Origin: Nostocoides sp. Soil756
Lineage (GTDB): Bacteria; Actinomycetota; Actinomycetes; Actinomycetales; Dermatophilaceae
Assembly: GCF_001428065.1 (NCBI RefSeq)
Contig: NZ_LMSE01000002.1
Location: forward strand, 382,924 to 446,923
Length of the DNA stretch: 64,000 nt
Direction of reading: 5' to 3'
This document shows, piece after piece, positions 53,632-57,469 of the stretch (the first letter of the stretch is position 1; the number at the start of each line of letters is the position of its first letter). A program made the position numbers and the translations under genes. Below the pieces are notes generated by a model. That model did no database searches. It saw only the letters and a program-made list of their open reading frames with translations, and had not been told where the DNA came from.

Positions 53632-55083
53632 ATGTCCGTTGACCACAAGGTTCGCGACCTCGGCCTCGCCGAGTCCGGTCGCCACCAGATCCGCCTCGCC
53701 GAGCACGAGATGCCCGGCCTGATGTCGCTGCGCGCCGAGTTCGGCGACAGTCAGCCCCTCAAGGGCGCCCGCATCGCCGGCTCGCTGCACATGACCGTGC
53801 AGACCGCGGTGCTCATCGAGACGCTGACCGCGCTCGGTGCAGAGGTCCGCTGGGCCTCCTGCAACATCTACTCCACCCAGGACGAGGCCGCCGCGGCCAT
53901 CGTCGTGGGCCCCCACGGCACCCCCGAGGACCCCCGGGGCGTCCCGGTCTTCGCCTGGAAGGGCGAGACCCTCGAGGAGTACTGGGACTGCACCGAGCAG
54001 ATCCTCACCTGGCCCGGTGGCCAGTACGCCAACATGATCCTCGACGACGGCGGCGACGCCACGATGCTGGTCCACAAGGGCAAGGAGTGGGAGGCCGCCG
54101 GCCAGGTGCCACCCACGACCGAGGAGGACACCGAGGAGTTCGGCGTCTTCAAGGCGCTGGTCCGCCGCACCATGGGCCAGGATCCGCAGAAGTGGACCAA
54201 GGTCGCCGCCGAGATCAAGGGCGTCACCGAGGAGACCACCACCGGGGTGCACCGCCTCTACCAGCTGGCCGAGGCCGGCGAGCTGCTCTTCCCCGCGATC
54301 AACGTCAACGACTCGGTCACCAAGAGCAAGTTCGACAACAAGTACGGCTGCCGCCACTCGCTCATCGACGGCCTCAACCGCGCCACCGACGTGCTCATCG
54401 GCGGCAAGGTGGCGGTCGTGGCCGGCTACGGCGACGTGGGCAAGGGCTGCGCTGAGTCGCTGCGCGGCCAGGGCGCCCGCGTCATCGTCACCGAGATCGA
54501 CCCGATCTGCGCGCTGCAGGCCGCGATGGACGGCTTCCAGGTCGCGAAGCTCGAGAGCGTCGTCGACAAGGCCGACATCGTCGTCACCTCCACCGGCTGC
54601 TTCAACGTCGTCACGGCCGAGCACATGCAGCAGATGAAGAACAAGGCGATCCTGGCCAACATCGGCCACTTCGACAACGAGATCGACATGGCCGGCCTAG
54701 CCAAGGTCCCCGGCGTCCAGAAGCAGGAGATCAAGCCTCAGGTGCACGAGTGGACCTTCGAGGACGGCGACTCGATCATCGTCCTGTCCGAGGGCCGCCT
54801 GATGAACCTGGGCAACGCCACCGGCCACCCCAGCTTCGTGATGTCGAACTCGTTCTCGAACCAGACGATCGCCCAGATCGAGCTCTTCGGCAAGACCGAC
54901 GAGTACTACACCGAGGACGGCAAGCCCCAGGTCAAGACCCTCCCGAAGCACCTCGACGAGAAGGTCGCCGAGCTGCACCTCGAGGCCCTCGGGGTCGAGC
55001 TCACCGAGCTCACCAAGGAGCAGGCCGAGTACCTGGGTGTCGACGTCGCCGGCCCGTACAAGCCCGAGCACTACCGCTACTGA
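53632..55083 (+). CDS. sahH: Adenosylhomocysteinase (S-adenosyl-L-homocysteine hydrolase)
   Basis: 483 residues. Hydrolyses S-adenosylhomocysteine to adenosine and homocysteine in the methyl cycle. [20 protein letters not shown] and [20 protein letters not shown] open the substrate domain, the NAD-binding motif is [20 protein letters not shown] near 265, [20 protein letters not shown] supplies catalytic Lys and Asp, and [20 protein letters not shown] is the late family signature. The roughly 40-residue insertion typical of bacterial enzymes is present (residues about 120-170). The protein ends with KPEHYRY, as expected. Two degraded pieces of a second sahH lie downstream. Confidence 0.97.
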
Positions 55084-55107
55084 TTCCGTAGGTCATCGTG
55101 TCGCGGA

Positions 55108-55137
55108 GGCGCCCTCGGACTGCTGTCCGGGGGCGCC
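55108..55137 (+). terminator. Terminator after sahH
   Basis: GGCGCCC (55108-55114) and CGGAC (55116-55120) pair with GTCCG (55125-55129) and GGGCGCC (55131-55137), with only one mismatched pair and a four-base loop. It begins 25 bases after the sahH stop. Confidence 0.65.
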
Positions 55138-55299
55138 CCGGTCGTGACGGACCGCCACACCGGCACCTGTGTGGCTGACGAGTGGATGAGAGGGAGCCTC
55201 CACCGAACGGTCGAGATGCTCCGCGTGTCGCTGACATGGAATCCGTCGCCCCCCTACGGTGGTCACGCGCAGGACCCCTGACCTGACCGAAGAGGTGCC

Positions 55300-55803
55300 A
55301 TGAACCAGACCAGTGCCATGCCGTCTGTGGGCGTCGCTGTCTCCCCGAGCCACGGCGTCACGTCGGCGCTGCCGGCCCCCCGGGTCCTGCGGGTCCTGGC
55401 CCAGGTCCTGGTGCTGGCCCTGGTCGTCATGACGCCTGGCCTCCCCATCCCCGTCGTCGTGCTCTACGTCCTGGCCCAGCTGGTCGCCGGCGTCTCGGTG
55501 CATGCCCTCCACCGGAGCCGGGGCGGTGCGCGAGCGGTCGTGAAGACCCTGCGCGCCTGGGGCGTCGGCGCCGCGTTGGGGCTGGCCGTCGTCCCACCCC
55601 TGACCGCGGGCATCGGCGTCTCGGTGACCGCCGCTCAGGTCGCCGTCATCGCGGGCGTTCTCCTCGTCGGGGTTCTGGGCGTCGCACGCGACCAGTTCAA
55701 CGACGCCGGCCGTGCCATCGACGGCATCCTCGCCACGCTGCCCCCGCCGGTGGACACTGCGGAGGCCGCTCGTGCCGAGCACTCGATGAACGCGGGCGTC
55801 TGA
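55300..55803 (+). CDS. Hypothetical small membrane protein
   Basis: 167 residues with three or four hydrophobic segments (VLAQVLVLALVVMTPGLPIP, VVVLYVLAQLVAGVSV, AALGLAVVPPLTAGIGVSV, VAVIAGVLLVGVLGVA) and a polar C-terminus. No family is recognised. It lies between sahH and the first degraded sahH piece, so it belongs to the acquired segment. The start at 55300 has only a weak AGAGG ribosome site. Confidence 0.5.
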   Translation: MNQTSAMPSVGVAVSPSHGVTSALPAPRVLRVLAQVLVLALVVMTPGLPIPVVVLYVLAQLVAGVSVHALHRSRGGARAVVKTLRAWGVGAALGLAVVPPLTAGIGVSVTAAQVAVIAGVLLVGVLGVARDQFNDAGRAIDGILATLPPPVDTAEAARAEHSMNAGV

Positions 55804-55924
55804 CGCCGGCAGCAGGGGGTCGGGTTCGAGCCCGACGGAGGCGTTCTCGGTCACCGTCCTTCTGAATCTCCGCCGGCACTCGACGTGTCGTTGTGGCCCC
55901 GGCGCTCCTCGCCACCGGGCCACT

Positions 55925-55976
55925 TCCAGAGCCGTCTGCTGAGGCTGGGCAACGCCGCCGGCCACCCGGGCTTTCG
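55925..55976 (+). pseudogene. Degraded internal fragment of sahH
   Basis: This stretch aligns with 54787-54838 of sahH, which encodes the [17 protein letters not shown] region. It contains CTGGGCAACGCC and CCGGCCACCC with the same spacing, and the translated order LGNAAGHPGF is retained, but the surroundings carry small indels and frame changes. It has the same orientation as sahH and lies upstream of the terminal sahH copy at 57399, in the same order as in the intact gene. It is a relic of a second sahH-like sequence. Confidence 0.6.
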
Positions 55977-56105
55977 CGGCGTGGCAGCCGTTCAGGAACC
56001 ACACCCCCCGGACGTCACGACGTTCGTGAAGAGTGAGGCGTGACCAAAAGGCGGATGCAGCGACGCGGGGCGAGCCTGAGGATGGGTGCACCGGAGAAGG
56101 AGATC

Positions 56106-57398
56106 ATGGCGCGCAGCACGTCGGCACGAACCACTCGCCCTCAGTGGGCCTTCCATCTGGCGACCCTGTGTGGCGCAGGCTTCATGGTCGCGCTCACCGT
56201 TCCACGCACCTACTTCGTCAACGACGACTGGTCCTTCGTCGGCCCCCTGGCGAACGGTCAGGTCGGGTGGCTGTGGTTCCTTCTTCCCCAGAACGAGCAC
56301 CTGGTACTGCTTCCCAAGCTGTTGTTCGCTGCCCTGGGTTCCCTCTGGGGATTCGCCTCGTCCGTGCCGTTCGTCGCGGTGACCGTCTCGTTGCACCTCA
56401 TCCTCTGCCACCTGCTCTGGCGCCTCGCTCTCCTGAACGGGGCAAGTGCGACAGTATCGGCGCTGGGCGTCGCTGGGTTTGCTGTGTATGGCGCGGGCGT
56501 GGAGAACATCCTCTGGGCCTTCCAGGTCGGTCTCGTGGGGAGCATGGTGCTCGGTGTGCTGCTTCTGCTGGAGATCTCCCGGGACCGGCCACGGGCGGTC
56601 GTGGTAATCGCCCTTGCGGTGGCCAACGTCCTCACGACAGGACTCGCCCTGGTGTTCCTCGCTCTGGCGACCGTCATCCTGCTGGCGACGCGCCGTTCCC
56701 GATGGGTCCTGGCATTGGTGCCCGCAGGAGTCGTGCTGCTGGTCTGGTTCCTCCTGGTGTCGCCTCGCTCTTCCGCTTCCCAGCTGACCGTCGACGACGC
56801 CGTGCTGCTTCCCCTGTACTGGATCCTGGGCATCGGCACCGCTGTGTCTGCGCCCCTGCCGATCCTGCGAGCCGGGGAGGTCCTCGACCTCGGGATGTCG
56901 CTCCAAAGCCTTGGGCTTGCCCTAGCAGGGTGCGTGGCCCTGCTCGCCGTGCTGTTGATGGCGGAACGACGGAAGGTGCTCGAGCGCGCTCTGTCCGCGA
57001 AGGCATTCGCCCTGGGGTGCCCGATGTTCGTCGTGGTCACCAGTGTCCCGCGGATCGCATCCGGTCTGCCGATCGCCCTGTCCTCGCGCTACGCCTACGT
57101 CGCGACCGCGCTCTTGGTTCCTCTGTTCGTGGTGCTCCTCAGCCGCGTGGGTGCGACCCGGAGCCGGAGGGTCGTAGTCCTCGTGGGTTCTGCGCTGATC
57201 GCGATCGGGAACCTCGTGCAGTGGGTCCCCATGGCCCACGAGTGGAACTCGCGAGCGCAGGCGCGGCTCGTGACGATGGCGGTCGGAAGGGACTTGGTCA
57301 TCGGGAGGCTGCCGGGCTACGACTCGACTCCGCCCGCCCCGGAGTTCGCCATGTTGTCAGGGCAGGAACTGCTCGCGCTGAGTTTCCCGAGCGATCTT
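56106..57398 (+). pseudogene. Membrane protein gene truncated by a sahH tail
   Basis: From the ATG at 56106 (AAGGAG at 56097-56102) an open frame of about 430 codons has 10 or more hydrophobic segments, such as PRTYFVNDDWSFVGPLANGQ followed by WLWFLLPQNEHLVLLPKLLF. The NDDW and QNEH residues in the first loop resemble GT-C glycosyltransferases. The native end is missing: at 57399 the sequence switches abruptly to the sahH 3' end in another frame, and the frame then runs on without homology to 57944. Base composition is less extreme than neighbours. It was probably an intact glycan gene before the rearrangement. Confidence 0.6.
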
Positions 57399-57469
57399 CC
57401 AAGGAGCAGGCCGAGTACCTCGGCGTCGACGTCGCCGGCCCGTACAAGCCGGAGCACTACCGCTACTGA
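57399..57469 (+). pseudogene. Second copy of the sahH 3' end
   Basis: These 71 bases match 55013-55083 of sahH at 68 positions and encode the same [18 protein letters not shown] sequence through to the stop. The three differences (CTG/CTC, GGT/GGC, CCC/CCG) are all synonymous third-position changes. That pattern means the copy diverged while part of a working gene and is not a recent slip duplication. It follows directly on the truncated membrane protein gene, in a different frame, and is followed by its own strong hairpin at 57501. Confidence 0.9.

Follow-up and report, generated by a model that had tools for sequence, protein, structure and literature searches.

The sahH gene of Nostocoides sp. 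Soil756 (genome G000) is followed by a second copy of its own 3' end. In the 64,000-nucleotide stretch of contig NZ_LMSE01000002.1 that was analysed (the window, whose coordinates are used throughout), the intact gene is separated by an insert at 55084-57398 from a repeat of its last 71 bases, behind which lie a terminator-like hairpin and a putative glycosyltransferase gene. Comparison with the closest congener, G002, identifies this second copy (tail 2) and the sequence following it as resident; 57399 onward is the displaced original end, and 55084-57398, probably together with the sahH end now in use (tail 1), is therefore the insert. The reading that we favour, with moderate confidence, is that DNA from another sahH locus entered here, by homology at sahH on one side and by an illegitimate join on the other.

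Two ends of sahH

An earlier note on this DNA had reported that the sahH end at 55013-55083 recurs at 57399-57469 with three synonymous differences, and this is confirmed. The two tails are identical at 68 of 71 positions, and because the mismatches at tail positions 23, 26 and 53 (sahH positions 1404, 1407 and 1434) all fall at third codon positions (CTG/CTC, GGT/GGC and CCC/CCG) they are synonymous. The insert is thus bounded by 71-bp direct repeats that terminate exactly at the stop codon, with the target gene restored. Identity of the repeat breaks off sharply at both sides, and the 30 bases to the left of 57399 have no similarity to sahH beyond chance, with 364 of 2000 random 30-mers from the window scoring equally or higher (556 of 2000 when a semi-global alignment to sahH is used). 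The features of the locus, all on the forward strand, are as follows.

52417-53472 (+): cation-efflux gene, the resident upstream neighbour (Pfam Cation_efflux, 2.2e-34), collinear with G002.
53632-55083 (+): sahH, intact, 483 aa (Pfam AdoHcyase, 9.2e-146).
55013-55083 (+): tail 1, the end that sahH uses at present, with three synonymous differences from tail 2.
55084-55150 (+): terminator-like hairpin 1 (fold z -4.15, 0/200 shuffles), unlike that behind sahH of G002.
55300-55803 (+): ORF1, a putative small membrane protein of 167 aa (hydrophobic by eye).
55931-56041 (+): decayed sahH relic, corresponding to sahH positions ~1163-1273, with its core at 55928-55973.
56106-57398 (+): membrane-protein gene, counted from its likely start codon (ATG) up to the junction, where it is probably cut; relatives are at 27-35% identity.
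57399-57469 (+): tail 2, the displaced resident sahH end, out of use, 71/71 identical to G002 and four other congeners.
57470-57545 (+): terminator-like hairpin of the resident gene end, which now follows the orphan tail 2 (fold z -5.50, 0/200 shuffles).
57673-58908 (+): putative glycosyltransferase-type membrane protein, the original downstream neighbour, with 77% amino acid identity to the gene directly behind sahH in G002.

Comparison with related genomes

Comparisons used 11 genomes of the same genus (G001-G011), one genome per species, within a family set of 186 genomes (185 besides G000); an order set of 396 genomes overlaps with the family set. The G001 contig ends inside sahH, such that ten of the 11 congeners are readable at the sahH end, and in G001, G003 and G009 the contig stops less than 5 kb behind sahH.

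Relatives with a single tail had been proposed as a check on the arrangement, and all ten readable congeners have one full sahH tail each. G002 has the order efflux gene, sahH, single tail, terminator and glycosyltransferase, and corresponds to an empty site. The window matches it in one piece from 52000 to 55083 (93%) and again in one piece from 57399 to 58911, the latter beginning at the same single sahH end, and the insert is without counterpart between these two blocks. Tail 2 is identical at 71/71 positions to the tails of G002, G005, G006, G007 and G008, from each of which tail 1 differs at three positions; from the other five readable congeners tail 1 has 4 to 6 differences, against 1 to 6 for tail 2, the two being tied in G003. 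Of the 89 bases that align within the first 90 behind tail 2, 81 are identical to G002, as are 175 of 202 up to the glycosyltransferase start, and the intergenic sequence upstream of sahH is identical at 140 of 156. Tail 2 is resident because it has no differences to G002 in 71 bases, is collinear with it downstream, and is followed by sequence about as diverged as the upstream intergenic region; together with its hairpin it looks like a vertically inherited gene end that is now displaced.

The sahH gene itself has 54 differences from that of G002 in 1452 columns (pS 0.114), distributed along its entire length, and it continues unbroken into sequence unlike that of G002 with no divergence step inside sahH to mark a crossover. 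Because these differences are spread over the whole gene, a donor stretch within sahH, if there is one, would be unmarked and maybe short.

The gene directly behind sahH belongs to nine families in the ten readable congeners, as defined by a simple gene caller and blastp clustering. Pfam assignments for nine of those ten genes are glycosyltransferase family 2 (two genes), acyltransferase, polysaccharide synthesis (flippase-type) and response regulator (one each), and none for the remaining four. The sahH gene adjoins a variable, often glycan-related region. The product of 57673-58908 has no Pfam match and reaches an NCBIfam cell-surface glycopolymer family at 9.2e-8, with 31.6 bits against a cut-off of 150.

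Composition of the insert

Profile scans of the window proteins (Pfam, PHROGs and NCBIfam) recognised no recombinase or integrase in the insert, as the earlier note had stated, a result that is compatible with an integrase acting in trans. ORF1 and the membrane-protein gene have no Pfam or PHROGs match, and for ORF1 NCBIfam gives only a non-significant line (E 0.72). The insert has no copy elsewhere in G000 except for short, chance-like matches.

Among the 185 other family genomes ORF1 has a single relative at E at most 0.001, in G009, which lies between the efflux gene and sahH and ends 155 bases before sahH. A profile of these two sequences yields a weak third relative in G001, where it follows the efflux gene and precedes sahH by ~1.4 kb (E 3e-5 over 92 loci, 1.4e-4 over 254 loci), although the loci given to the profile were mostly sahH surroundings, such that the G001 position is biased and less telling. 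These placements suggest that ORF1 is linked to the sahH neighbourhood. The sequence between tail 1 and ORF1 (55084-55299) scores 21 against the region before ORF1 in G009, above the maximum of 17 in 200 shuffles, but this is one of nine comparisons of which the other eight are at chance level, and we place no weight on it; in the 186 family genomes the same sequence gives, besides itself, short matches only (best 9.5e-6 over 44 bases).

A degraded sahH piece, earlier placed at 55925-55976 in the right order and orientation, is recovered here. Its core at 55928-55973 is 83% identical over 46 bp to 54791-54836 of sahH, with a frameshift thereafter, and the alignment lengthens to 55931-56041 (sahH 1163-1273) when sahH of G002 is the query. 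The spacing of this piece and the tail, 175 bases in intact sahH as against 1.4 kb here, agrees with the measured coordinates. No other window stretch among 98 and no shuffle among 200 reaches the local score of 37 (sahH against 55084-57380). Two of 103 stretches taken from relatives' loci do, each of them including part of a genuine sahH, and p is ~0.001 by a Gumbel fit with 184 window controls. The relic is also the best local match in the insert for 121 of 122 relatives' sahH genes, with scores from 38 down to 21 that are not independent. Judging from these alignments, we take 55931-56041 to be a real relic of sahH. Because the insert contains this relic as well as a gene whose relative or relatives lie upstream of sahH, its content suggests that a relative's sahH neighbourhood, and not a mobile element, was its source.

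The membrane-protein gene likely starts at the ATG at 56106, to judge by reading of the sequence and a purine-rich leader, and its relatives are found in scattered actinobacteria and in one bin named Acidobacteria. Its end had been described as lost at the junction, and this is right in part. No stop is present at the junction and the frame continues, out of frame with sahH, through tail 2 to 57944; the C-terminus of the gene has probably been lost. Ten homologous loci were compared, nine of which gave rows, and as two of them (L047 and L084) are from one genome there are eight distinct loci. In six of these the relative extends ~98-159 residues beyond what remains in the window, and the loss is only probable because the other two (L087 and L085) end at about the same place.

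Each tail had also been credited with a strong hairpin terminator. The two hairpins are strong, as listed above, whereas no T run was seen by eye behind either stem, no dedicated terminator scan having been made. The sequence behind tail 1 does not resemble the post-sahH sequence of G002 (35 of 300 shuffles equal or higher). Against the post-sahH hairpins of other congeners its score is reached by 0 of 300 shuffles for G007 and for G010 and by 1 of 300 for G011, a weak, hairpin-like resemblance. An Rfam search of 50000-64000 gave no matches.

Proposed origin of the arrangement

In the favoured reading the donor would be a linear chromosomal piece with the order sahH end, terminator, ORF1, old sahH relic and membrane-protein gene. 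This piece would have paired with the resident sahH by homology, the resident end being swapped for the synonymous end of the donor, and on the right side an illegitimate join would have linked a point within the membrane-protein gene to the resident sahH, 71 bases ahead of its stop. This would leave sahH intact, lengthen the locus by 2,386 bases and strand the old end of 71 bases, with its terminator, behind the cargo. We infer that tail 1 arrived as part of the insert, through a homologous left crossover somewhere in ~54982-55034 (past sahH position ~1350), that the join on the right was illegitimate, and that the donor was another sahH locus, probably that of another strain. The body of sahH would be resident, and its last part, somewhere after ~54982, possibly donor-derived. 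The earlier suggestion that sahH served as an anchor, with the host gene end restored, is thereby supported by inference.

Several observations weigh against this reading. No donor was found: a close relative of the membrane-protein gene turned up neither in the 186 family genomes, nor in the overlapping set of 396 order genomes, nor in a pattern-based contig scan, and no other family genome has a copy of tail 1 at more than 96%. The three changes in tail 1 equal the expectation from ordinary divergence of sahH, such that tail 1 could be native, in which case the left joint would sit behind it. If tail 1 is donor-derived instead, both junctions fall within the same ~50 bp of sahH, which the mechanism does not demand. 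Joins formed by homology-facilitated illegitimate recombination (HFIR) are expected to carry short microhomology, a feature to be read from the donor sequence.

Two variants were rejected by argument from the anatomy of the locus. With two successive events in situ, giving an array of orphan ends, tail 2 would be older than the relic, although it is the relic that is more decayed, and a Campbell-type insertion of a circle would place the membrane-protein gene before ORF1, the opposite of the actual order.

A broader proposal, which we regard as unlikely, is that the sahH 3' end is a standing docking point in the genus. Incoming DNA with any sahH end would be stitched behind the gene with no recombinase, and repeated rounds would exchange the cargo, often glycan-related, and leave behind sahH relics, of which the one inside the insert would record an earlier round in the donor. 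The nine families directly behind sahH in the ten readable congeners pair with this proposal.

Alternative explanations

The polarity of the event could be the reverse, with sahH, ORF1, the relic and the membrane-protein gene being older, and a G002-like fragment (tail 2, terminator, glycosyltransferase and glycan cluster) having arrived and joined into the membrane-protein gene. In its favour, tail 1 and the rest of sahH diverge from G002 to a similar degree, and relative to G002 the glycosyltransferase has a dS of 0.46 and the flippase a dS of 1.52, where the two upstream genes have only 0.24-0.26. The sequence directly behind tail 2, however, is about as diverged from G002 as is the intergenic sequence upstream of sahH, and the supposed older arrangement is found in none of the congeners read; we consider this explanation improbable.

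Site-specific integration at the sahH 3' end, by a small element without its own integrase or by the remnant of one, would make the 71-bp repeats its att sites, with the crossover in the 22 bases that precede the first difference. The repeats run exactly to the stop codon, the frame is restored, the differences are purely synonymous and both junctions may lie within ~50 bp, all as expected of such an event. The cargo, however, resembles sahH-neighbourhood DNA and has no recognised integrase. The nearest Phage_integrase (PF00589) match in G000 is ~127 kb away on the contig (G000:C2:566950) and its sole PF07508 match is on another contig, and in the 11 congeners the sahH contig is free of PF00589 matches to a distance of 18 kb from the gene, as far as their contigs reach. 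The last 100 bases of sahH match 0 phage records, and although 61 plasmid records are matched, 19 among the 20 listed have the match in annotated ahcY genes. With the survey of other loci described below, these findings leave site-specific integration quite improbable, and they speak against the earlier idea of sahH as an attachment site of integrative elements.

One interpretation given in the earlier note, that a whole second, diverged sahH entered or was duplicated and decayed to the relic and tail 2, with a glycan gene inserted between them, is doubtful and is not supported on its main point. It accounts for the proper order and orientation of the two pieces, and the ORF1 relatives upstream of sahH in G009 and, weakly, G001 are placed as if sahH had followed ORF1. 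Nonetheless, tail 2 is resident and runs on into the post-sahH sequence of G002 itself, and a relic at 83% over 46 bp, then frame-shifted, alongside a tail at 100% over 71 bp to G002 implies unequal decay that is unlikely in one gene. An assembly or contamination artefact is very improbable: both junctions are supported by the assembly alone, and an insert essentially without copy elsewhere in the genome would suit such an origin, but the locus is interior to a large contig of a nine-contig genome with contamination listed as 0.01, and a 71-bp repeat is in our judgement short for mis-joining.

Recurrence at sahH

A search of the 186 family genomes with the 71-bp tail gave a match in 177 and two or more matches in 27. 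Two of these, G039 and G102, have second complete sahH genes, one of each pair being near a contig end; two complete genes per assembly (L080/L081 and L082/L083) reflect either true duplication or mixed strains. When the remaining 25 (G000 included) were re-searched, a second end near sahH was present only in G000 and G185, the other second matches being short (21-39 bases) and far off or on other contigs.

The region behind sahH was also scanned for second ends in 123 relatives' loci, representing 123 of the 185 other family genomes and picked mostly from among the matches listed in the tail search; G001 has nothing behind sahH, leaving 122 readable loci. The scan reached at least 3.1 kb behind sahH in all 122, at least 10 kb in 114, and 19 kb at maximum, and called copies that terminate at the stop codon with a score of at least 12, a threshold that older tails would escape. 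Within this range no locus other than that of G000 has cargo between two sahH tails, and the sahH end as a recurrent attachment site is rejected on this basis. The only same-strand match is in G185 and the only match in the reverse-strand control is in G105. In G185 (L097, 3850-3974) a 67-bp spacer, which by eye is like an inverted, degenerate copy of the sahH end, separates the gene from a second copy of its last 29 bases (28/29 identical); G183 (L099), of the same genus, aligns to the second copy and following sequence at 75%. G105 (L163) has an inverted copy of the last 25 sahH bases at 24/25, starting 20 bases behind the stop, and the sahH end itself is able to form one arm of a long hairpin. 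In our judgement both are local fold-back or hairpin events and not cargo.

A survey for integrases near sahH used 37 frames from 43 integrase loci, some of them over-long open frames, and was run without a positive control; it returned ten rows in nine loci. Two rows are from G113 (L168), at 52% and 56% identity and 3.3-3.9 kb behind sahH, but at this locus, where the integrase-like gene is 3.9 kb behind sahH, no second tail was found. The other eight rows have E values from 6e-16 to 8e-7 and 25-45% identity, and are 8-16 kb away.

Other repeats and genes in the window

A 124-bp direct repeat (83%) at 60500-60622 and 61478-61599 flanks a methyltransferase gene at 60721-61485, each copy lying immediately 5' of one of two leftward genes. 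The repeat was found only in G000 among 12 genus genomes searched, and the methyltransferase gene may likewise have been gained between direct repeats, as the second such case in this region. An O-acetyltransferase-type gene at 59459-60507 on the minus strand looks split by a frameshift, with the C-terminal part at 59459-60274 (Pfam Acyl_transf_3) and the N-terminal part at 60256-60507 (PHROG O-antigen acetylase). Farther away in the window there is an inverted repeat pair at 7557-7982 and 8476-8901 (71%), and there are two direct-repeat sets at 25650-26612 (73%) and 40627-40852 (77%).

Relationship to known systems

Surface-polysaccharide loci are exchanged via conserved flanking genes, usually by what is considered a clean double homologous exchange that leaves no orphan tail. 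The sahH locus is similar in that a conserved housekeeping gene adjoins a variable, often glycan region and the neighbour changes between species, but it has an orphan tail that such an exchange is not expected to leave. Integrative elements at gene 3' ends (integrative and conjugative elements, integrative and mobilizable elements, and islands) generate a direct repeat of the gene end and restore the gene. The direct repeats at both ends and the restored sahH are alike, whereas here no integrase or element genes were recognised in the insert and no second sahH case with cargo was found in the 122 readable loci (searched to at most 19 kb). Tandem duplication followed by decay would be expected to leave similarly decayed remnants, in contrast to the very different states of the relic and tail 2. 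In the papers searched we found nothing pertinent on sahH or adenosylhomocysteinase as an attachment site or hotspot, which is no proof that none exists.

The closest likeness is to HFIR of linear DNA, which, according to PMC3240628, is known from three naturally competent species and, at low frequency, from Escherichia coli conjugation. It would share with the sahH locus one homologous and one illegitimate side, and the gain of foreign DNA without a recombinase gene of its own; it differs in that the sahH case is deduced from a finished product. The locus thus may be said to work like HFIR by appearance, which is not proven membership. Orphan immunity-gene arrays and displaced effector 3' ends in Vibrio cholerae type VI secretion system (T6SS) clusters, and also orphaned Rhs 3' regions, have been attributed to a proposed mechanism akin to HFIR (PMC5361080). 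A conserved anchor, new cargo behind it and an old 3' end moved downstream are common to both; there, however, the variable 3' end is the cargo, whereas the anchor at sahH is a housekeeping enzyme, restored with an almost unchanged end. Both the combination of homology on one side with an illegitimate join and the displacement of 3' ends have already been described, and the earlier proposal of an undescribed way of entry is not supported.

If the favoured reading is true, the sahH locus, with a single-tail relative to set against it, would be a clear natural footprint of an actinobacterium having gained foreign DNA next to a housekeeping gene through a homologous anchor. It would also mean that direct repeats of gene ends, usually taken for attachment sites of an integrase, can form with no mobile element involved, which would call for caution in automated island finding.

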